Positions 2,804 through 26,043 of a stretch of DNA of 45,621 nucleotides are shown here, piece after piece (the first letter of the stretch is position 1; every line of letters begins with the position of its first letter). Made by a program: the position numbers and the translations under genes. A model generated the notes under the pieces. The model ran no database searches, was not told the DNA's origin, and saw only the letters and a program-made list of their open reading frames with translations. The stretch spans positions 1-45,621 of the forward strand of contig JANDLV010000033.1 in assembly GCA_024330185.1 (NCBI GenBank). The letters run 5' to 3'. This DNA is from Candidatus Siliceabacter maunaloa. Lineage in GTDB: Bacteria; Actinomycetota; Thermoleophilia; Solirubrobacterales; Solirubrobacteraceae.

Positions 2804-3597
2804 GCGACCCGCACACGGCCAGTGGCGCCCCCGGGGCCCGTGACGTGCTCGCGGCCTGCGAAGTCGCGGTGGTCCGGGCCGACAACCCCGGCCCGTTCAC
2901 GCTGACCGGGACCAACACCTGGGTCGTCGGTCGCGGCCCGTGCTGGGTGATCGACCCGGGGCCGGCGCTCGCCGGGCACCTCGACGCGGTCGTCGCGGAG
3001 GTGGGCCGTCGCGGTGGCGCGGGCGGCCTGGTGCTCACCCACGGCCACCACGACCACGCCGAGGGGGTCCCGGCGCTGGCGGGGCGTGTGGACGCGCCGA
3101 TCGTCGCGGTGGGCGACGGGGGGCGTGTGGGGCCGCTGGTCGCCGTGGCCACGCCCGGGCACACGCCCGACCACCTGGCCTACGTCCGCGGTGACGTGGT
3201 GTTCACGGGCGACAGCGTGCTGGGGGAGGGCAGCGCGTTCCTGGCTCCCGATCCGGGCGCCCTGCGCGGATACCTCGCGGCGCTGGAGCGCCTGCGCGCG
3301 CTGGAGCCGGCCCTGCTCTGCCCCGGCCACGGCCCGGTCGTGACCGACCCCGACGCCCACCTGGCCGGCTACCTGGCCCACCGCCACGCACGTGAGGGCG
3401 CGCTGGTAGCTGCCCTCGAGCGCGGCCTGCGCGGGATCGACGAGCTGCTGGACGCCGCCTGGGCAGAGGTCCCCGCTGTCCTGCGTCCCGTCGCCGCGAT
3501 CACGATGGCCGCACACCTGGACAAGCTCGAAGAGGACGGACGCCTGCCCCCGGGGGTCGAGCGCCCGCGCTGGCCGCCGCCGGGCGGTCCGGGGTAG
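2800..3597 (+). CDS. Metallo-beta-lactamase-fold hydrolase (LACTB2/glyoxalase-II-like)
   Basis: The signature HxHxDH is at residues 81-86 (THGHHDHAEG), with further metal-ligand regions at TPGHTPDH, FTGDSVLG and LCPGHGPVV. The N-terminal PFTLTGTNTWVVG is characteristic of the LACTB2-like branch, soluble binuclear zinc hydrolases that include endoribonucleases and thioesterase-like enzymes, so the substrate stays open. The C-terminal helical region (AAHLDKLEEDGRL) also fits that branch. 265 residues is a normal length. The GTG start overlaps the upstream 70-residue gene by four bases. It ends convergently, 21 bases from the dehydrogenase gene. Confidence 0.9.
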   Translation: MSDPHTASGAPGARDVLAACEVAVVRADNPGPFTLTGTNTWVVGRGPCWVIDPGPALAGHLDAVVAEVGRRGGAGGLVLTHGHHDHAEGVPALAGRVDAPIVAVGDGGRVGPLVAVATPGHTPDHLAYVRGDVVFTGDSVLGEGSAFLAPDPGALRGYLAALERLRALEPALLCPGHGPVVTDPDAHLAGYLAHRHAREGALVAALERGLRGIDELLDAAWAEVPAVLRPVAAITMAAHLDKLEEDGRLPPGVERPRWPPPGGPG

Positions 3598-3618
3598 GCG
3601 AATCAGCCGGCCGCTCGC

Positions 3619-4668
3619 TCATGACACGCGCAGGCGCTCGTGCGCGAGCGCCCGGGCCGCTGCCAGCGGCGTGGTGCCCGCGGCGTCGGCGTCGGCGAAG
3701 ACCCGGCGCAGGGTGTGGCCGATCGTCGCGAGCCGTTCGCGGGCGCGCGCCGGGTCGTAGGCGCCGTCGAGCTCGACGCTGATGTTGATGATGCCGCCGG
3801 CGTTGCAGACGAAGTCGGGCGCCCACAGGACCCCGCGGTCTGCGAGAACCTCGGCGACGCTCCCGTCGGCGAGCTGGTTGTTGGCCGCCCCGGCGATGAT
3901 CCGAGCGCCTGCGCGGGCGGCGGTCTCGTGGTCGAGCCCGCCGCCCAGGGCGCAGGGCGCGTAGACGTCCACCTCGGCCTCGAGTGCCTGGGCCGGGGTG
4001 ACCCACCGGGCGCCGAGCCCCTCCGCGGCCGCGCGGCGCGCCGGGTCGATGTCGGCGGCCAGCAGGTGGGCGCCCGCCTGCGCGCACCCGGCGGCCAGCG
4101 CGACGCCGACGCTGCCCAGGCCGGCGATGGCCACCGTGCGTCCGGCCAGGTCGCCGCTGCCCGTGGCGCGCTCGAGGCTGACCTCGATGGCCTCCTGCAC
4201 CCCCAGCGCCGTCCAGGGGCTCGGGTCGCCCGAGCCTCCGCGGCGCACGTCCAGGCCGCTGACGTGACGCGTGCGCCCGGCGATCGTCTGCATGTCCTCC
4301 TCAGCCGTGCCGACGTCCTCGGCGGTCACGTAGGCGCCCTCGAGGGCCTGCACCGTGTCGCCGAAGTCCTCGAGCGCCGCCGTACGCAGCGGCCCGGTGG
4401 GCGGGAGGCTTCCGGCCGGAAGCACGATCACCCCCTTGCCGCCGCCCATCGGCAGGTCTGCGGCCGCTGCCTTGAAGGTCATCGCGCCCGAGAGGCGCAG
4501 CACGTCGCGGACGGCGGCGCGCGTGTCGTCGTAGGGCCACATGCGACAGCCGCCCAGCGCCGGCCCGCGCACCGTCGAGTGCACCGCGACCAGCGTGAAG
4601 AGCCCCGACCGCGCACCCCGGCGGACCAGCAGCGTCTCGTGATCGAGGGAGGCCAGGTAACGCTCGAT
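3619..4668 (-). CDS. Leucine-dehydrogenase-like amino acid dehydrogenase, non-canonical ATC start
   Basis: NAD-dependent oxidative deamination of a branched-chain or related amino acid is likely. The catalytic-lysine region reads TFKAAAADLPMGGGKGV, and the Rossmann motif GLGSVGVALA follows about residue 175. GPALGGCRMWPYDD is typical of leucine and phenylalanine dehydrogenases. Homology clearly continues upstream of the first canonical start (GTG 4584) through SLDHETLLVRRGARSGLFTL, but an in-frame TAG stands at 4678-4680 and no ATG, GTG or TTG lies between. ATC 4668 places the N-terminus (ERYLASLDHE) where the family begins and lies six bases after TAGATC, resembling a leaderless promoter. 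It follows the sigma-factor gene. Confidence 0.82.
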   Translation of the reverse strand: MERYLASLDHETLLVRRGARSGLFTLVAVHSTVRGPALGGCRMWPYDDTRAAVRDVLRLSGAMTFKAAAADLPMGGGKGVIVLPAGSLPPTGPLRTAALEDFGDTVQALEGAYVTAEDVGTAEEDMQTIAGRTRHVSGLDVRRGGSGDPSPWTALGVQEAIEVSLERATGSGDLAGRTVAIAGLGSVGVALAAGCAQAGAHLLAADIDPARRAAAEGLGARWVTPAQALEAEVDVYAPCALGGGLDHETAARAGARIIAGAANNQLADGSVAEVLADRGVLWAPDFVCNAGGIINISVELDGAYDPARARERLATIGHTLRRVFADADAAGTTPLAAARALAHERLRVS

Positions 4669-16199: not shown

Positions 16200-17027
16200 C
16201 TAGGTCGTCATGCCGGTGAACTGGCCGCCGGTGACGTTGAGCACCTGGCCGTGGACGTAGTTGGACCACGGCGAGCAGAGGAAGAAGACGCCGCCGGCGG
16301 CCTCCTGGGGCGTGCCTGCGCGGCCGATGGGGATGAGCATGGCAGCCATGCCGCGCAGCTGGTCGGGGATCCCCAGCTGCACCGTCTCGCCGTCGACCTC
16401 CATGGTGTTGGAGCCCTCCTTGGAGGCGGTCAGGCGCGTCTCGATGAAGCCGAAGGCCGCAGCGTTGACGTTGACCTTGAACTGGCCCCATTCCTTGGCC
16501 AACGACTTGGTCAGGCCGACCACGGCCGACTTGCCCGCCGCGTAGTTGGCCTGGCCGGCGTTGCCCATGGTCCCCGAGACCGACGAGATGTTGACGATCT
16601 TGCGAAAGACCTCCTCGCCGCGCTCCCTCTCGGCCTTGGCCGGCTCGCGCAGGTGCGGGGCCGCCGCGCGGATGACCTTGAAGGGCACGGTGACGTGGAT
16701 CTCGAGCATCCGCTGGAACCAGTCGTCGCTCATCTTGTGGATCGGCGCGTCGAGCGTGTAGCCGGCGTTGTTGACGATGATGTCCAGGCGTCCCCAGGCG
16801 TCGACGGCCGTCTGCACGAGCTGGTCGGGCGCGTCGCCCTTGGTCAGGTCGCCGGAGTGGACGGCGGTCTCGCCCGTGATCTCGTCGGCCGTCTGCTGCG
16901 CGGCGTCGCCGTCGAGGTCGTTGATGACGACCCTGGCGCCCTGCTCGCTGAGCAGCTCCGCCGTGGCGCGCCCGATGCCGCGGGCCGAGCCGGTCACGAT
17001 GGCCACCTTCCCGTCGAGGACTCCCAT
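16200..17027 (-). CDS. Short-chain dehydrogenase/reductase (3-oxoacyl-ACP reductase-like)
   Basis: 275 residues. The Rossmann motif TGSARGIG is at 12-19, NNAG near 90, the catalytic Ser at IVNISSVSG, and Tyr/Lys in NYAAGKSAV. The C-terminus GGVFFLCSPWSNYVHGQVLNVTGGQFTG is typical of FabG-like enzymes (quoted as family evidence in part). An unusual insertion, REPAKAERERGEEVFRK, lies before the catalytic serine, as in actinobacterial homologues acting on fatty acyl or hydroxyacyl-CoA chains. AAGGAGATCGAAC before the ATG is a good ribosome binding site. Substrate unknown. Confidence 0.9.
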   Translation of the reverse strand: MGVLDGKVAIVTGSARGIGRATAELLSEQGARVVINDLDGDAAQQTADEITGETAVHSGDLTKGDAPDQLVQTAVDAWGRLDIIVNNAGYTLDAPIHKMSDDWFQRMLEIHVTVPFKVIRAAAPHLREPAKAERERGEEVFRKIVNISSVSGTMGNAGQANYAAGKSAVVGLTKSLAKEWGQFKVNVNAAAFGFIETRLTASKEGSNTMEVDGETVQLGIPDQLRGMAAMLIPIGRAGTPQEAAGGVFFLCSPWSNYVHGQVLNVTGGQFTGMTT

Positions 17028-17141
17028 GTTCGATCTCCTTCGGTTCGTAGGCGGCCGCGCATGCTAGTGACGTCGCCGTAGGTCCGAACTTGAGAGGACC
17101 GGAGGCGAAAGCCTCCTTCGCTGCCCGCACCGGGGCCTGAG

Positions 17142-18488
17142 CTACACGTAGTGGAAGATCGCCAGGTGCAGGAAACCGGCCACGAGGCCGAGCACCGCGC
17201 CGTGGAGGTACAGCAGCCACTCGTCCTCCCTCATGGCGGCGCGCAGCATCTCGCCGAAGTCCTCGGGCGCCATCTCGCGCATGCGCGAGCTGACGAGGGA
17301 GCTGATGCGGGTGCCCTGCTGGCGGTTGAACTCCGGGTCGTCCATCGGCGTCATGGTGTAGTCGACTGACTCCACAGCCACCGACTCGCGGATCGCGGCG
17401 TACTCGCGCGTGCCCATCGCCATGCGCACCAGCGAGCGCGCCGGGCCCACTGCGCGATCCACCGCGGGACGGATCGCGCTCTCGATCATGGCGCGCGTGC
17501 GGTCGGACGCCGGCCCATGGAGGAGCTGGTTGGCGATGTTGCTCAGCGTGATGACGTCGTCGGCGATGATCTGGGCGTAGATGTCGGCAGCCTCGGCCTG
17601 CCGGCGCATGAACAGCCCGTGGAGCTTGAGGCCCAGGAACCGTCGCGGCCGGGCCGGCTCGAAGATCATCCAGATGGCCACCAGGTTGGTCGTGTAGCCG
17701 ACGATCACCCCGCAGACGGGCAGCAGCCACCAGAAGTCGAAGACCACCTCGGTGAGGATCGCCACCGGCACGCCGAGGGCGAGGCCCATCCAGAAGCCGA
17801 AGTTGACGATGAAGCGCAGCTCCTTGCGTCCGATCTCCTGGAAGACGCGGTTGCACAGCTCCGGTTCGGCCTCGAGGCGCCGGACGACCATGAGCTTCAC
17901 GTCCAGGAGCTGGTCGAGGTTGTCGCCGATCTCCTCGGTGACCTTGTGCACGATGTCGGGAAGCTGTTGCTGGACGCGGTCGTGGACCGCCTCGCGGATG
18001 CGCGGCGGGGTGTCGTGCCAGAGCTGCCCGTGCTCGCGCTCCATGATCTGCTCGACGAGCGCGTGGATGTCGTCGCGTGCCGTGGTGAGGATGTGCTCGG
18101 CGATCTTCTCGGGCTCGAGCTGGGCGTAGAACTCGGCCGGGCTGCCGAGCTTGGCGATCCCCTTGTCGACGGCGATCGAGCCCATCTTGGCCGCGCGCGA
18201 GGGGATGATCCCCTGCCAGCCCATGCCGCCGGACATGATCCCCGGGATCTGCTGGATCTTGCGCGGAAGGAGGGCGACGACCGCCCGCAGCCCCGGGACC
18301 TTCCACCCGCGGAACTGGATCGGGTTGAAGAGCATCCACACGCCGCTCCAGTTGGTGATCCAGCCGATCACCGCCATGAACAGCGGGACGGTGAGCAGGC
18401 TGAACCAGTTGATCTCCACGGGAGGCGAGACTATGGGACGGGTCGAGGCACTGCCGGGGAGTGCGGCCGGCTCGGGCGCCGAGGACAT
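17142..18488 (-). CDS. DUF445 family membrane protein
   Basis: 448 residues. An N-terminal membrane segment (FSLLTVPLFMAVIGWITNW) is followed by the family motif GVWMLFNPIQFRGWKVPG. A long helical, charged middle (EKIAEHILTTARDDIHALV, DRVQQQLPDIVHKVTEE) precedes two more hydrophobic segments near 230-275 (GLALGVPVAILTEVVFDFWW, IVGYTTNLVAIWMIF) and a C-terminal helix (HGAVLGLVAGFLHLAIF). DUF445 proteins are YheB-like membrane proteins of unknown role. The ATG at 18488 gives the family's expected N-terminus. Divergent from the arylsulfotransferase gene, with 106 bases between. Confidence 0.9.
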   Translation of the reverse strand: MSSAPEPAALPGSASTRPIVSPPVEINWFSLLTVPLFMAVIGWITNWSGVWMLFNPIQFRGWKVPGLRAVVALLPRKIQQIPGIMSGGMGWQGIIPSRAAKMGSIAVDKGIAKLGSPAEFYAQLEPEKIAEHILTTARDDIHALVEQIMEREHGQLWHDTPPRIREAVHDRVQQQLPDIVHKVTEEIGDNLDQLLDVKLMVVRRLEAEPELCNRVFQEIGRKELRFIVNFGFWMGLALGVPVAILTEVVFDFWWLLPVCGVIVGYTTNLVAIWMIFEPARPRRFLGLKLHGLFMRRQAEAADIYAQIIADDVITLSNIANQLLHGPASDRTRAMIESAIRPAVDRAVGPARSLVRMAMGTREYAAIRESVAVESVDYTMTPMDDPEFNRQQGTRISSLVSSRMREMAPEDFGEMLRAAMREDEWLLYLHGAVLGLVAGFLHLAIFHYV

Positions 18489-18594
18489 GGGGTGGCCCAG
18501 TTCGGTCGGGCAGCTGCGGGCGGGGTGCGCCCCGACACGATCGCGTAGCCTCGCGCTCCTCGCGGCGGTCACCTCGCCGCGACCCTGCCGTGCG

Positions 18595-20418
18595 ATGAGA
18601 CGAATCGTCCTCCTGATCCTGTCCCTGCTGGTCTGCGCCGCCGTGGCGCTGGCCGTCCTCGGCGCGCCCTCGAGCGCAGACGATCGGGTAGGCGTCTTCC
18701 CGGCGCCCGGCACCCAGACCGCATCGCCGCGCACCGAGCTGTCCTTCCGCGGCGTGGACGCTGACGACCTGGACGCCGTCGAGGTGGTCGGCGAGCGCAG
18801 CGGGCCGCGTCGCGGGCAGGTGCGCGAGCACGCCGATGGCGATGGCGCCAGCCTTGTATTCGCCGAGCCCTTCGAGGGCCCCGAGGACGTGACCGTGCGC
18901 ACCGAGCTCGATCTCGCCGGTGCGCGCGAGGGCGACTTTCGCTTCGCCACGGTCCCTCGCCCCGAGGAGGGGCTGGGGAGCGGGTCGCCGCCGCCCGAGC
19001 GCCTGCTGCGTCAGTACACCGCCCAGGAAGGCGACCAGCCGCCGTCCGGCTCGGCGCCGACCTACCGCTCGCGGCCCGACCTGCGCCCACCGGAGGTGGA
19101 GATCTTCGAGCGCTCGCCCGGGAGCACGGCGCCGGGCCTGGTCTTCCAGGCGCCCAAGAAGGTCTTCGGCGCGCCCGAGCAGCCCGGGGTGCAGACGGGC
19201 CCGATGATCCTCGACTCCGACGGCGAGCCGGTGTGGTTCGCCGAGCTGGACGGCGGCAACGTCGCCGACTTCCGCGCGCAGGAGCTCGACGGGGAGCCCG
19301 TCCTGACCTGGTGGCAGGGCCGCACCGTACTGGGAAGCGGCGAGGGCGAGGTGGCGATCCTCGACGACTCCTACCGCCCGATCACCGAGGTGCGCGCGGG
19401 CAACGGCTACCGCTTCGACTTCCACGAGACGCTGATCACCGAGGACGACACGCTGCTGGGGCTGGTCTACAACCCGGTCGACCGGGACCTCTCGTCGGTC
19501 GGGGGCCCGCGGGACGGGCGCGCCATCGACTCGATCGTGCAGGAGGTCGACATCGAGACCGGGCGCGTGCTGTTCGAGTGGCACAGCCTGGGCAACGTGG
19601 CCCTGGAGGAGAGCTACACGGAGGTCCCCGAGGACCGCTCGAAGGCCTTCGACTACTTCCACGTCAACGCGATCGACGTCGACGACAACGGCAACCTGCT
19701 CATCTCGGGACGCGACACCTGGTCGGCGGTCAAGGTCGACCGGCAGACCGGGCGCACCATGTGGCGCCTGGGCGGCAAGCGCAGCGACTTCGCGATGGAG
19801 GGTGAGTCCCAGTTCGCCTGGCAGCACGACGTCCGGCGCACGCCCGACGGGGACATCCGCATCTTCGACAACGCCGCCGCCCCACCCGTGCGCGAGCGTT
19901 CGCGGGTGCTCGATCTCGAGCTCGACGAGGAGGCCATGACCGCGCGCGTGGGCCGTTCCATCGAGCACCCCGAGGACCTGTTGTCGGGCACCCAGGGCAA
20001 CGCCCAGCGCCTGCCGGACGGCAACGTCTTCGTCGGGTGGGGCTCGCAGGGCTACTTCTCGGAGTTCGCCCCCGACGGGCGCATGCTCTTCGACGGGCGG
20101 GTGGCGCGCGGCTTTGACAGCTACCGCGCCTACCGCATGCCGTGGGACGGCCGCCCCGTCGACGCCCCCGCGGTCGCCGCGCAGGGCGACGAGGAGGGCA
20201 CCACGGTGTGGGCGAGCTGGAACGGCGCCACCGAGCTGGCCGGCTGGGAGGTGCTGGCCGGCGAGACGCGGGACTCGCTGCGTCCCGTGGCCCGGGCCGA
20301 CCGCGACGGCTTCGAGACGCAGGTCGAGGCGCCGGGCCGGGCCCGCTGGGTCGCCGTACGCGCCCTGGACGCCCGGGGCGATGAGCTGGGCGCCTCGGAG
20401 CCGGTCGCCGTCGAGTAG
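18595..20418 (+). CDS. Arylsulfotransferase (ASST) family protein, exported
   Basis: 607 residues. Residues 1-25 form a signal peptide (RRIVLLILSLLVCAAVALAV). A beta-rich N-terminal domain precedes the propeller. Signature segments are YRFDFHETLITEDDTLLG, FDYFHVNAIDVDDNGNLLISG and QFAWQHDVRRTPDGDIRIFDN, where conserved histidines would take part in sulfuryl transfer. The C-terminus (TTVWASWNGATELAGWEVL) looks fibronectin-III-like. PAPS-independent aryl sulfotransferases move sulfate between phenolic esters outside the membrane; most actinobacterial members are untested. A sulfatase pseudogene lies convergently 45 bases away. Confidence 0.85.
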   Translation: MRRIVLLILSLLVCAAVALAVLGAPSSADDRVGVFPAPGTQTASPRTELSFRGVDADDLDAVEVVGERSGPRRGQVREHADGDGASLVFAEPFEGPEDVTVRTELDLAGAREGDFRFATVPRPEEGLGSGSPPPERLLRQYTAQEGDQPPSGSAPTYRSRPDLRPPEVEIFERSPGSTAPGLVFQAPKKVFGAPEQPGVQTGPMILDSDGEPVWFAELDGGNVADFRAQELDGEPVLTWWQGRTVLGSGEGEVAILDDSYRPITEVRAGNGYRFDFHETLITEDDTLLGLVYNPVDRDLSSVGGPRDGRAIDSIVQEVDIETGRVLFEWHSLGNVALEESYTEVPEDRSKAFDYFHVNAIDVDDNGNLLISGRDTWSAVKVDRQTGRTMWRLGGKRSDFAMEGESQFAWQHDVRRTPDGDIRIFDNAAAPPVRERSRVLDLELDEEAMTARVGRSIEHPEDLLSGTQGNAQRLPDGNVFVGWGSQGYFSEFAPDGRMLFDGRVARGFDSYRAYRMPWDGRPVDAPAVAAQGDEEGTTVWASWNGATELAGWEVLAGETRDSLRPVARADRDGFETQVEAPGRARWVAVRALDARGDELGASEPVAVE

Positions 20419-20463
20419 CTCAGCCGGCGCCGTGGGTCGGGCTGGGCGCGAGGACCGGGTCGA

Positions 20464-21496
20464 TCAGTAGCGCGGCGGAGGCTTGCCTCCGGCGTCGGCG
20501 ATCACCGCGTCCCACAGGCGGTCGACCTCGTCGGGACGCTCGTCGGCCAGGTTGCGCCGCTCGCCGGGATCCTCCTCGCGGTCGAACAGCTTGGGGTTGT
20601 ACTTGCGGTTGCTGGCGATGAGGGTCATCCGCTCGTCGCCGGCCCACACGTAGTCGTTGTAGCCGGCGGTCTGCACCGCGCGCTCCTGCGCGGCCTCGTC
20701 GCCCGCCAGCAGCGGCGTGAGGTCGATGCCCTCCATCTCCGCGGGGACCGCGACGCCGGTCGCGGCGAGGATCGTGGGCGCCAGGTCGTGCAGCGAGGCC
20801 AGGAAGTCGGTGGTGCGCCCGGCGCCGGCGCCCTCGGGGTGGCGCACGACCAGCGGCACGTCGACCATCTCCGCGTAGAGCTGTGAGGGGGACTTGCCCA
20901 CGACGCCGCGCTCGCCGAGGCTGTGGCCGTGGTCGGAGTAGAAGACCACCAGCGTGCTGTCGGCCAGGCCCAGCTCGTCCAGGCGCTGCAGGAAGCTTCC
21001 CATCCAGTGGTCGGCGAGCGTCAGCTCGCCGGCGTACAGGGCGCGGGTGCGCGTGAGGAGGCGCTCGTCGAGGTAGTCGTCGCCGCCGTAGAGAGGCTGG
21101 ATCGGCTCGATCCCGTCGTAGTCGGGGTCGTCGTAGCGGTCGACGTAGCTGCGCGGCGGATCCCACGGCTCGTGGGGGTCGTAGGCGTCGATGGTCGGCG
21201 TCTGGACGGCGCGGTCGGGGCGGATCGCGTCGGCGCGGTAGGCGCCGACGTGGTCGGCCCGCAGGGTGTCCAGGCCGATCAGCACGACGTTCATGCCCCG
21301 GTTGACCACGCTGGCCGGGCGGGGACGGTCACCCCTGGAGGTGAGGGCCAGCGCCCCGCCGCCCCCGAGCGCGGCGGCGCCCATCGCTCCTGCCGACGCG
21401 CGCAGCATCCGCCGTCGGGTGAGTCGGCGGTCCGTGCCGGTGGGGGGAGCCGCCCGCGACCCCCTCGGGGCCGCTATCGGCGTCGTCCGTCGACAT
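20464..21496 (-). pseudogene. Tat-exported sulfatase lacking its active-site segment and frameshifted at the N-terminus
   Basis: The 314-codon main frame has a Tat signal (TRRRMLRASAGAMGAAALGG) and the first metal site (VVLIGLDTLRADHVGAY). It then jumps from VQTPTIDA directly to YDPHEPWDPPRSYVD, FYSDHGHSLGERG and the normal sulfatase C-terminus. In full-length relatives these are separated by well over 100 residues carrying the [C/S]xPSR nucleophile that becomes formylglycine or acts as serine; that segment is absent. Upstream, a leaderless-type ATG (21496) begins STDDADSGPEGVAGGSP in another frame, and removing one G from the six-G run at 21442-21447 joins it to the Tat motif. As it stands, a hydrolase function is not expected. 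Confidence 0.85.
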
Positions 21497-21503
21497 CCGG
21501 GCT

Positions 21504-21509
21504 ACCCTA
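21504..21509 (-). promoter_or_regulatory. Leaderless -10 element TAGGGT of the sulfatase gene
   Basis: On the minus strand TAGGGT is followed by seven bases and ATG 21496. This supports 21496 as the ancestral start and hence the frameshift in the G-run. Confidence 0.5.
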
Positions 21510-21572
21510 TCTCCCGCCTGCGCGGCGGTCGTGCACGACCGCGGGGGCTCAGGCCGCACGCCGTGGCGGTCG

Positions 21573-23147
21573 ATGACCCTCTCGATGCGCGTGGCCAAGC
21601 CCTTACTCTCCTTCCTCCTCGCGGCCGTGCTGGGCGCGCTCGCCCTGGCCGCCCCCGGACCCGCCCGGGCCGCGGGCGCCCCGGTCCTGCCCGGGGAGTA
21701 CCCCGACCCCAGCGTGGTGGCCCACGATGGGCGCTACGTGGCCACGGCCACCAGCAACCGCTGGGCGCCCGTCTTCCCGGTATTGGTGTCCGACGACCTG
21801 GTCTCCTGGCGCCAGGCCGGATCCGTGTACGAGCGCGCACCGCGGTGGGCGACGGGCCGGCGCTTCTGGGCGCCGGAGCTGACCGTGGCGCGCGGGCGGC
21901 TGCTGGTGGTCTACGCCGCCCTGAAGCGCAACGGGCAGTGGTGCATCGGGGCCGCCACGGCTGCGCGTGCGGCCGGGCCGTGGCGCGACCGCGGACCGGT
22001 CCTGTGCCGCCCGGGAGGCGCCATCGATCCCGCGGTGGTCACCGGCGAGGACGGCGACTCGTACCTCGTCTACAAGGCCAAGGGCGTGGGAGGCGGGCTG
22101 TACGCCCGGCCGTTGGACCTGCGCACGCTGCGCACCCGCGGGCCCGCGACGCGCCTGCTCGAGCCCCAACGCGGCGATCGGGGCGTCACCGAGGCCCCGG
22201 CGCTGCTGCGCCGCGACGGCTGGTGGTACATGTTCTTCTCGTCGGGCAACTGCTGCGGCCCGCCGTGCACCTACACCGAGCGCGTGGCCCGCTCGCAGTC
22301 CCTGCTGGGACCGTACACGCGGCTGGAGGAGCCGGTGCTGCGCGACTCGGCGGACTGGCGCTGCCCGGGCCACGGGACGCCTGTGGAGCTGGACGACGGC
22401 CGCGTCGCCCTGTTGCACCACGGCTATCGCTTCGCCGACGAGGGCAACCGCCGCCGGGTCGGACTGCTCTCGCTGATGAGCTTCGGTACGGACGGGTGGC
22501 CGGCGGCGCAGGGTGGGCCCGTCGACGCGGCCGCTCCGGCCGCGCTGGGCGCCGAGCCGGCGCCTGCGCCGGATCGCCTGGCCGACGACTTCGCCGGACG
22601 CGAGCTGTCGGTGGCCTGGCAGTGGATGGCGCGCACCTCGGTCCCCCAGACCCGCGTGGCCGGCCGCCGGCTCGATCTGGGCTGCGGCCCGTACGCGACC
22701 ATCACGCGCCAGGTCGGCGCCGATCGCTTCGAGGCGGCCGTCACGGTGCGCCCCGCGCCCGGCCGCGACGGGATCGCGACGCTGGGCATCCACGAGCGCG
22801 GCGGGGTGCTGCGCGGCGTGGAGATCCGCGACGGCACCGCCCGCGCGGTGCGCCGCAACGGCGACTCGGTGAAGCTTGGCACGGCCGTCCGCGTCCCCCG
22901 CGACGACGCCGTGCGGGTGCGCGTGACCGCGCTGGAGGATGGAGCGTTGCGCGCCGAGGTCCGCCGCGGCGGGCGCTGGGTGCGTGTGGCCGGCGGCCTC
23001 GCCGCCCGGGGCGACGAGCCCACCCGCGTCGCGCTGGCCTGCCGGGGCAGCGGCCGGACCGCGCGCTTCACGGCCCTGCGCGTGGAGGGCGCCACGCCGG
23101 GGGTGGCGCTGGCGGTGCAGCCGGCGGCCGGCCCCAGCGCGCGCTGA
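21573..23147 (+). CDS. Secreted glycoside hydrolase family 43 protein
   Basis: 524 residues. A signal peptide (PLLSFLLAAVLGALALAAPG, cleaved near ARAAG) leads to a five-bladed propeller. The GH43 catalytic acids are in place: Asp45 (EYPDPSVV), Asp152 (GAIDPAVV) and Glu207 (GVTEAPALL). Cys pairs in SGNCCGPPC fit an exported protein. From about residue 340, a second beta-sandwich (DDFAGRELSVAWQWM, then FEAAVTVRP) resembles the GH43 C-terminal accessory domain. Arabinan or xylan side-chain hydrolysis is the usual role; the linkage cannot be set from sequence. ATG 21573 was chosen; ATG 21585 would also give a signal peptide. Confidence 0.9.
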   Translation: MTLSMRVAKPLLSFLLAAVLGALALAAPGPARAAGAPVLPGEYPDPSVVAHDGRYVATATSNRWAPVFPVLVSDDLVSWRQAGSVYERAPRWATGRRFWAPELTVARGRLLVVYAALKRNGQWCIGAATAARAAGPWRDRGPVLCRPGGAIDPAVVTGEDGDSYLVYKAKGVGGGLYARPLDLRTLRTRGPATRLLEPQRGDRGVTEAPALLRRDGWWYMFFSSGNCCGPPCTYTERVARSQSLLGPYTRLEEPVLRDSADWRCPGHGTPVELDDGRVALLHHGYRFADEGNRRRVGLLSLMSFGTDGWPAAQGGPVDAAAPAALGAEPAPAPDRLADDFAGRELSVAWQWMARTSVPQTRVAGRRLDLGCGPYATITRQVGADRFEAAVTVRPAPGRDGIATLGIHERGGVLRGVEIRDGTARAVRRNGDSVKLGTAVRVPRDDAVRVRVTALEDGALRAEVRRGGRWVRVAGGLAARGDEPTRVALACRGSGRTARFTALRVEGATPGVALAVQPAAGPSAR

Positions 23148-23184
23148 GCGTCTGGGTGACGCCAGGCCAAGCTCGTCGGCGCTG

Positions 23185-23433
23185 TCATGTCTCTTCGGGT
23201 ATCCGCAGCGTGTCGGTCCACAGGGACTCGAACTCGGTCCGCTTGGATCGATGCTCGTCATCGGTGATGCGATGGCCTTTGCTCATCCGGGCAAGCGCCG
23301 AGCGCACCTCGACGTAGGTGATATGCGCGGACCTCACCGATGCGGCGCCCTCGAACGCGGCGAACGTCTCCAGGGTGCCGGGCTCCTCGACGACCAGCTT
23401 GACGAACGCGCTGCTGTCCAGATATAGGCTCAG
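23185..23433 (-). pseudogene. C-terminally truncated PIN-domain toxin (VapC-like), CTG start
   Basis: 82 residues, against about 130 for a full VapC. SLYLDSSAFVKLVVEEPG carries the first PIN aspartate (Asp6), and THITYVEVRSAL-type sequence (ITYVEVRSALARM) carries Glu42. The protein stops after TDTLRIPEET, before the C-terminal acidic residues that complete the RNase site. No ATG, GTG or TTG is available; a CTG at 23433 overlaps the antitoxin TGA as CTGA, with GAAGG six bases upstream. Another frame just downstream reads ADELGLASPR, possibly residue of the lost C-terminus. Likely inactive. Confidence 0.68.
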
Positions 23434-23699
23434 TCGCGGCCTTCGCTCACGTAGTCGGAAGCGAGCGGACCCTCCCCGCGCAGGGGCGTGGGGTGAGAGG
23501 GAAGCCTCGGCTTGCGCCCGGTCCACGTGGCCCGGCCCTCTGCGAGCAGCCGCTCCAACCCCGGAGACAGTCCGGCGGGAATCACACGCGCGACCGGCTT
23601 GCCGTACCTGGTGACGGTCAACGTCTCGCCGTGCTCGACCGCCTCGATGAGCGAGCTCGCGTTGTCTCGCAGCTCACGGACGCCCACCTCACGACTCAT
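23430..23699 (-). CDS. Phd/YefM-family antitoxin
   Basis: 89 residues. VGVRELRDNASSLIEAVEHGE and LTVTRYGKPVARVIP (given separately) are the canonical DNA-binding Phd fold. The C-terminal part (LLAEGRATWTGRKPRLPS) should wrap the cognate toxin. It overlaps the truncated PIN toxin by four bases. Antitoxins of this family repress their own operon; no clear operator is visible upstream of 23699. Confidence 0.88.
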   Translation of the reverse strand: MSREVGVRELRDNASSLIEAVEHGETLTVTRYGKPVARVIPAGLSPGLERLLAEGRATWTGRKPRLPSHPTPLRGEGPLASDYVSEGRD

Positions 23700-23801
23700 G
23701 TGGCCACCTACGCTCGGCGTAGGCCCATTCCGATGAGGACGTCGTCGAGGTCGCCGCGTTCTTCGAGAAGCGGGAGCCGCAGTGGAAGGGTCGCTGACCG
23801 C

Positions 23802-24191
23802 TCAGCCGGCCGCGCGGAGCCTCACGGCGGGCAGACCGTCGAAGCCGGTGGCGTCTGCGGTGACCACGGCGCGATCGGTGTCCAGCGCCGTCGCGGCGAT
23901 GATCAGGTCATGGGCGCCGCGCGGGCGCCCCTGGCGCCGGACCGTCGCGAGCAGGCCCGCGTGCGCTCGCGCGGTGGACACCTCATAGGGCTCGATGCGC
24001 AGCTCGGCCAGCACCGCTTCCACGAACGCGGCGCGGCCGGCCCTATGGCGTGCGTCCGCGAGCTCGACGCCAACGAGCAGCTCGGCGGCCGTGACGGCTG
24101 CGACCGCGAGGTCGTCCTCGTCGTTCACGAGCGCAGCGAGCGGTGACCCGCCCCGCTGCGCGGCGACGAGCACGGTGGTGTCGAGGATCAA
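23802..24191 (-). CDS. PIN-domain toxin (VapC-like), complete
   Basis: 129 residues with all PIN acidic positions: Asp4 (ILDTTVLVAA), Glu37 (VTAAELLVGVELA), Asp in GAHDLIIAATAL and Asp in VVTADATGFD. The expected activity is a magnesium-dependent site-specific RNase. The TTG start at 24191 overlaps the antitoxin stop (TTGA); an earlier TTG would add two codons. The start also matches the family's usual N-terminus. Confidence 0.88.
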   Translation of the reverse strand: MILDTTVLVAAQRGGSPLAALVNDEDDLAVAAVTAAELLVGVELADARHRAGRAAFVEAVLAELRIEPYEVSTARAHAGLLATVRRQGRPRGAHDLIIAATALDTDRAVVTADATGFDGLPAVRLRAAG

Positions 24192-24439
24192 TCGCTCCAA
24201 CGGTCTGGCGCCTGCGTCAGGCCGCCGCGCAGCTCGCTCAGCTCCCCGGCCCAATCGTCGTCCGGCCGGTGCTCTGCGAGCAGATCCTTCAGCCGCCGCC
24301 CGCTCGTCGCGGCAGGCGGACCGATGCGCGCCACCTCGCGACCGTGGCGAACGACGGCGAAGCTCTGGCCGTCGCGCTCGACGGCATCCAGCACGTTCGC
24401 AAAGCCGCGTGCCGCCTCGGTGGCCGTGAGTCGCTTCAT
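24188..24439 (-). CDS. Phd/YefM-family antitoxin
   Basis: 83 residues. KRLTATEAARGFANVLDAVE followed by SFAVVRHGREVARIGP is the Phd-type DNA-binding N-terminus; the acidic end (DDDWAGELSELRGG) is the likely toxin-neutralising segment. It is coupled to the complete PIN toxin by a four-base overlap and lies in tandem with the damaged module downstream. A small AT-rich patch upstream (GATAATCTGATT on the minus strand) may hold its promoter. Confidence 0.88.
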   Translation of the reverse strand: MKRLTATEAARGFANVLDAVERDGQSFAVVRHGREVARIGPPAATSGRRLKDLLAEHRPDDDWAGELSELRGGLTQAPDRWSD

Positions 24440-24490
24440 GTAAATCAGATTATCAGAGTACGGCGATGGTGGCCTCGAGGGTGAGGCCGC

Positions 24491-25972
24491 TCAGGACGGC
24501 GCCGAGAGGCGTCGCTGCCAGATCGCGAGCCCGGCGGTCAGGACGTGCTCCAGCCACGCGTCGAAGCGCTCCTCGGCCACCGCAGGGTCCTCCCGCGAGT
24601 TGACCTGGAACAGCTCCTCGTCGAGGAGCCTGTCCTCGGTGCGCTGCCAGCTGCCGTCCTCCTGTGTGGCGTACTGCCAGAAGGCCGTGACCGCGATGAG
24701 GCCGCGGAAGGTGGTGCCGATGCCGTGGAAGGCGACGATCACCTCGTCCTGCTCGTCGTCGGCGGTCAGCTCGAGCCGGAACCAGGCCGCATAGGTGTCC
24801 CGATTCGCGAAGTATCCGAGGCGCCGAGCGTTTCCGACGACGGTCCGACCGTGCCACCTGGCTCGTTCGCTGCCCGCGGGCCAGGCATCGGTGTAGGCCT
24901 TCAGGCTGGGCGCGTAGTCGATGACCTCTCGCTGGAGCTGCTGCTTGAGAGCCTCGATTCGCGCGTGTCCGCGCTTGACGAGGCGGTCCGCGGTGGCCCG
25001 CGCGGCCGCAAGCTCCTGCGGGGCCCCCGTGGCCGCCGTCCCGAGCACCTTCTCCCGCACGGCGCGGATGACCTGGTCCACCCCCTCCTGCTCGCGCTTC
25101 GTCTGGTCGCCGATGCTCAGCGCCGTCACCAGCTCCTTACGCTGGAGGTGAGCGATCATCTCGCTGAGGTACTTGAGATTGCCCAGGTCGGCTGCTTCCA
25201 GCGTCTCGATGTAGTCGCCCTTGCGCTCCCGGTCGATGGTGAGCGGAAACCAGCCGGCGCGCAGCAGGACCAGGCTGGCCAGCACCCGCGCGACGCGACC
25301 GTTGCCGTCCTGGAACGGATGGATCTGCGTGAAGCGGTGATGCAGGAACGCTGCCTCCACCTCTGGCGGCACATCGGCGAGCTGATGGGCCGCGTGCAGC
25401 TCGAGCAGCCGGTCCATCTCGCTCGATACCTGCTCGGGAGGGCAGTAGACGTGCGTCGTCCCGTCGTCACGCGTCGGGTTGTTGGGCAGGCGCTTCCACT
25501 CGCCGTGCAGGAGCGCCACCTTGACCCGCCGCCCGAGCGAGTCGACGGCGTCGCTCGTCGTCTGGTGACGCGTGATCGCCGCGTGGAGCTCCTTGACGTA
25601 GCTCGTCGACAGTGCGCGCTCCCGCTTGATGAAGTCGAACAGACCGTCGATGGCGTCGTGCTGGTCGCGGATGATCTGGATGACGAGCCCCGGGTCCTGG
25701 TCGGTGGCCGACCGATCGATCAGGTTCTCGTGCAGGCCGCGCTCGATCAGCAGCTCGGTGGTTCCGCGATCGAGGTCGTACACATCCTCGATGACACCGG
25801 TTTCGATCGCCCACGTCCGGCTCAGCTTCTTACGGAAGTCACGCATGGCATCGAGCTCCTCCAGCTCTTGGCGCTTCTCCCGCCAGAGCGTGTCCAGCGC
25901 CCGCAGCTCGGACACCGCGAGGCCCTCGGCGGGGTGTTCCAGGTCGGCGATGGGATGCCAGCCATCCATCAT
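24491..25972 (-). CDS. Fic family protein with long C-terminal extension
   Basis: About 493 residues. The catalytic loop IHPFQDGNGRVAR matches HxFx(D/E)GNGRxxR, so AMPylation or a related transfer onto a target hydroxyl is possible. The N-terminal segment AIETGVIEDVY holds a [S/T]xxxE inhibitory-helix-like motif, with Asp where Gly or Asn is usual. The last about 200 residues (with LQREVIDYAPSLKAYTDAW and RLGYFANRDTYAAWFRLEL) are an unrecognised extension. ATG 25972 lies seven bases after TAGAGT; ATG 25975 is also possible. It is divergent from a second Fic gene across 111 bases. Confidence 0.9.
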   Translation of the reverse strand: MMDGWHPIADLEHPAEGLAVSELRALDTLWREKRQELEELDAMRDFRKKLSRTWAIETGVIEDVYDLDRGTTELLIERGLHENLIDRSATDQDPGLVIQIIRDQHDAIDGLFDFIKRERALSTSYVKELHAAITRHQTTSDAVDSLGRRVKVALLHGEWKRLPNNPTRDDGTTHVYCPPEQVSSEMDRLLELHAAHQLADVPPEVEAAFLHHRFTQIHPFQDGNGRVARVLASLVLLRAGWFPLTIDRERKGDYIETLEAADLGNLKYLSEMIAHLQRKELVTALSIGDQTKREQEGVDQVIRAVREKVLGTAATGAPQELAAARATADRLVKRGHARIEALKQQLQREVIDYAPSLKAYTDAWPAGSERARWHGRTVVGNARRLGYFANRDTYAAWFRLELTADDEQDEVIVAFHGIGTTFRGLIAVTAFWQYATQEDGSWQRTEDRLLDEELFQVNSREDPAVAEERFDAWLEHVLTAGLAIWQRRLSAPS

Positions 25973-26043
25973 CATTAGGACTCTACGGGTGCGTCCGGAC
26001 CTTGACCTGCTTGCCAGTCTTCGCCTCGCGATACCCACTCAAT

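Follow-up and report, generated by a model that had tools for sequence, protein, structure and literature searches.

Arylsulfatases and phosphonate monoester hydrolases of the alkaline-phosphatase superfamily carry a Cys or Ser (formylglycine) at the nucleophile position. The fold and metal-site layout of this group, represented by PDB 9koq, 7oz8, 2vqr and 2qzu, match those of the intact family to which the gene described here is related. In a prokaryote, Haloquadratum, strain comparison has documented deletions at direct repeats 4-20 bp in length (PMC3119063). The window, i.e. the whole stretch of 45,621 nucleotides analysed here, contains on its minus strand a sulfatase-like open frame of 314 aa (20464..21408), in which an N-terminal metal-site strand is fused in frame to a C-terminal half. 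With a probability of roughly 0.7, we read it as a recently inactivated pseudogene of a Tat-exported sulfatase-like hydrolase (alkaline-phosphatase superfamily, PF00884; Thr/Ser-nucleophile family) located in a variable region. The disrupting lesions that a pseudogene should display are a core deletion of about 177 aa and an offset between the frames of the start codon and the Tat motif.

Nucleophile of the intact family

Relatives were drawn from public genomes, mainly metagenome-assembled genomes of Rubrobacteraceae, together with same-family and same-order genomes, and the aligned family members are 39-50% identical to the window protein. The family position equivalent, in alignments, to the Ser of solved sulfatases is occupied by Thr in 52 of 59 relatives and by Ser in 7 of 59 (Cys, 0/59; L021-L080), and the surrounding motif is [T/S]xxxR (PTxPxRR) rather than the [C/S]xPSR anticipated by the original prediction. 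Because Thr is not convertible to formylglycine, the intact members are, for the most part, probably not formylglycine sulfatases, and sulfate esters, to judge from the mostly Thr nucleophile, would not count as an established substrate of the family. The Cys/Ser nucleophile of type I (formylglycine) sulfatases, which lies in C/S-x-P/A-x-R and is matured to formylglycine, is thus missing on both counts, the segment being absent from the window and the family having mostly Thr. A literature search for Thr-nucleophile sulfatase-like enzymes found none; the intact family, which is Tat-exported, has a Thr nucleophile and sometimes stands beside an arylsulfotransferase-like gene, merits study more than the window copy does.

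Loss of the core segment

On the minus strand, the main frame reads straight from TPTIDA into YDPHEPWDPP with no frame change, and both the 314-aa frame and its partial PF00884 match bear out the in-frame jump noticed at the outset. The match to the Pfam Sulfatase profile exceeds the cut-off (77.3 vs 25 bits) and comprises residues 78-219 of the protein, which correspond to profile positions 174-301 of 301 only, so that a full-length domain is lacking; in an intact relative, positions 2-301 are covered. How much is gone was measured between motifs. The distance from the Asp of TPxxD to the Tyr of YDPHEPW is 164-183 residues in full-length relatives, with most at 177-179, vs 1 in the window; counted from the N-terminal strand as far as DPHEPW, the span is 194-213 residues in complete relatives, vs 37. 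About 177 residues (~530 bp) are therefore missing, in keeping with the expectation of well over 100. The few other low strand-to-DPHEPW values come from short open frames (244-412 aa) in which the N-terminal part is missing, and at least some are cut by the end of a contig or locus; the deletion was not found in any complete relative compared.

What has been retained on either side of the gap? The N-terminal metal-site Asp47 (21268..21270), the C-terminal metal-site pair Asp159-His160 (20929..20934) and the active-site Lys172 (20893..20895), all on the minus strand, are retained and are invariant across the sulfatase-like family, and the window protein does possess the metal site and Lys of a type I sulfatase; the C-terminus is present as well, and in these respects the original description of the gene stands. 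GERG (mostly GEHG in the family) and AGDER were considered as lost active-site residues and rejected, both variants being present in other members.

In the structure model of the full-length relative L024, the lost residues, 60-242, hold the nucleophile and strands 66-72, 132-137 and 155-158, and most of 236-245. The window model has a mean pLDDT of 74.2, vs 89.9 for L024. Its confidence is low near the junction and the SDHG metal site, with values of 39-51 over residues 51-80, which lead up to and include the junction, and of about 50 at residues 161-180; the model is still sulfatase-like, with TM-scores, normalised to its own length, of about 0.42-0.56.

The junction lies at GACGCC (Asp74-Ala75; plus-strand positions 21184..21189, the gene being on the minus strand). 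That this hexamer stands at the join was correctly seen from the start, and the accompanying idea of a deletion between repeats finds some backing in relative L024, where TCGACGCC occurs at either end of the segment, which renders a repeat-mediated deletion plausible; the window has one copy at its junction, and both copies are known only from L024, a distant relative and not a sister strain. These comparisons support the view that the segment bearing the nucleophile was lost cleanly and in frame. Most probably ~530 bp were deleted, plausibly by strand slippage or end joining at the short repeat, between two Asp-Ala codon pairs sharing GACGCC, namely those of TPTIDA and of the VDA/IDA preceding YDPHEPW; such an event would have taken out four core strands along with the nucleophile and the intervening segment and left the frame open. 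Preservation of the frame, which would have a one-in-three chance if random, counts against the pseudogene reading.

Start codon and Tat motif

The Tat motif LTRRRM (21406..21423, minus strand), which corresponds to LTRRDFL in relatives, lies in the main frame and extends upstream of the first ATG of that frame. No ATG, GTG or TTG was found between the upstream in-frame stop and LTRRRM, so the motif does not follow a start in its own frame, and the earlier statement that the gene keeps a Tat signal is not confirmed. The probable original start, an ATG of the leaderless type at 21494..21496 (minus strand), reads in a frame other than the main one, with only 55 codons. A TANNNT element closely upstream of an ATG is the pattern of leaderless actinobacterial genes, and here a -10-like TAGGGT (21504..21509, minus strand) stands 7 nt upstream of ATG 21496; there are 9 TANNNT-N6-7-ATG sites on 91 kb (both strands), several of them heading long or recognised frames. 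GC content by codon position from ATG 21496 is of the coding type in the frame of that ATG (0.71/0.65/0.94), whereas the main frame is there out of phase (0.65/0.94/0.76). The interval 20464-21496, first taken as the gene, has 1033 bases, which leaves a remainder of 1 on division by three. The two frames part near a run of six C (21442..21447, minus strand), where a separate one-base offset would have put the start codon and the Tat motif out of register. Barring translation from an unusual start codon or a sequencing error in the C6 run, the offset counts as a second lesion.

Could the shortened gene nevertheless encode a fixed, functional protein, for instance one that binds a substrate without hydrolysing it? 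The open frame, the retained metal-site residues and the conservation of 24 of 24 near-invariant positions would agree with this, but the loss of four core strands and of the nucleophile, the frame difference between the Tat motif and the probable start, and the failure to find the same form in relatives make it very improbable. Equally little credence can be given to its more specific version, in which frameshifting at the C6 run, or an unusual start codon, yields a fixed, expressed short protein with a binding or decoy role. The sulfate-ester-binding, non-hydrolysing protein that the original prediction had envisaged is unsupported, because the core strands are lost, the model is poor at the junction and metal site, the start and Tat frames differ and the family has mostly Thr at the nucleophile position. 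In a pseudogene, by contrast, we would infer a loss of function.

Conservation of the remainder and the quality of the assembly

In what is left of the C-terminal part, all 24 positions conserved at >=95% are intact, as are 34 of 35 at 90%. Loss at near-invariant sites is thereby placed below about 12% (95% bound), vs about 50% divergence from the nearest relative, and it follows that the damage is young, that selection is ongoing, or that the damage is not real. The absence of any loss at near-invariant residues fits a young lesion and continued selection alike; full retention of the conserved residues would also follow from selection on the remaining protein.

The third of these options, in which the two lesions stem from errors of assembly or sequencing, would mean that the genome carries an intact gene from which the segment was lost, and near whose C6 run a base was gained or lost, by a misjoin, a chimeric read or a base error. 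The genome is indeed a draft assembly of 120 contigs, and the combination of two lesions with not a single conserved residue lost speaks for such errors. A shared repeat of 6-8 bp is, however, far below the overlaps or k-mers that assemblers require, and being too short to mislead a normal assembler it disfavours a simple collapse; moreover, the neighbouring short-chain dehydrogenase, Fic, GH43 and arylsulfotransferase-like genes read as intact, and the missing segment is on no other contig. An artefact is hence unlikely, albeit the strongest competitor of the pseudogene reading.

A broken gene may still have conserved residues in a frame that stays open, and automatic annotation pipelines would probably label this one a sulfatase.

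Genomic context

The gene lies in an interval (17030..24476) whose contents, apart from short edge matches, are unlike those of the sister genome G001. Its flanks (window 16204-17029 and 24477-25960) are collinear with G001 at 84-90% DNA identity, and between them the window has about 7.4 kb vs about 4.2 kb of different sequence in G001. The window interval carries a DUF445 gene, an arylsulfotransferase-like gene (PF14269; 18151..20418, plus strand) convergent with the sulfatase-like gene, the sulfatase-like gene itself, a divergent GH43 family gene with a full domain (21531..23147, plus strand) and two Phd/PIN pairs. The sister species G001 lacks the sulfatase-like gene altogether and therefore offers no undeleted allele. 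A variable interval suits a dispensable gene, and this one is probably accessory; the breakage of an accessory gene, as an ordinary kind of event, is the most likely explanation.

A search of the assembly for a second PF00884 match or for the lost segment found neither, although the same query was positive in three relatives. This bears on a variant of the pseudogene-by-deletion idea, in which two tandem sulfatase-like genes would have recombined at the short repeat, the first supplying the beginning and the second the end of the present gene, with the loss of anything in between. Each of nine fetched loci contains two family members, and the best relatives of the two parts differ slightly (L035 at 54% for the N part, L022 at 51% for the C part); but the N part, of only about 35 residues, is too short for placement and no further copy is left in the genome itself, which makes such a fusion of tandem paralogues improbable. 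The pseudogene reading, with a deletion inside a single gene, remains the preferred one.

Other features of the region may be recorded here. PF14269 genes occur near sulfatase-like genes in two Rubrobacterales loci as well (L022, from about 7165; L024, from about 826; 50-51% identity), which hints at a linked module. The short-chain dehydrogenase gene is intact in the window (16200-17027), and its sister copy (L092, about 2817-3683; G001:C18) has a one-base frame break near the C-terminus. The PIN-domain gene at 23185-23526, beside a Phd-type antitoxin, matches PIN profile positions 2-73 of 120 only and ends near the end of GH43; it looks truncated and is possibly a second broken gene of the variable interval. 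Another PIN toxin, accompanied by a Phd/YefM-like antitoxin (23802-24439), likewise has a TANNNT element (TAATCT) just upstream of the start at 24439, and a Fic/DOC family gene of 515 aa (24491-26038) is kept in the sister genome.

Comparison with known systems

Set against the solved arylsulfatases and phosphonate monoester hydrolases (9koq, 7oz8, 2vqr, 2qzu), which have Ser at the nucleophile position in the alignments, the family of the window gene differs in having mostly Thr. The deletions mapped in Haloquadratum differ from the present one in that both alleles were observed there, whereas the undeleted allele of the window is deduced from distant relatives; like the window, they leave one copy of the short repeat at the junction (PMC3119063). 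The closest likeness is with PF00884 genes of Rubrobacteraceae and of the same order (L022, L024, L035). These relatives, mostly about 480-510 aa long, possess the nucleophile segment, whereas the window gene is without about 177 aa and has its start out of frame; at 39-50% identity, they have in common with it the Tat motif, the DSLRxDH strand, YDPHEPWDPP, SDHG..GE[HR]G..GK and the C-terminal DAGG.LP.
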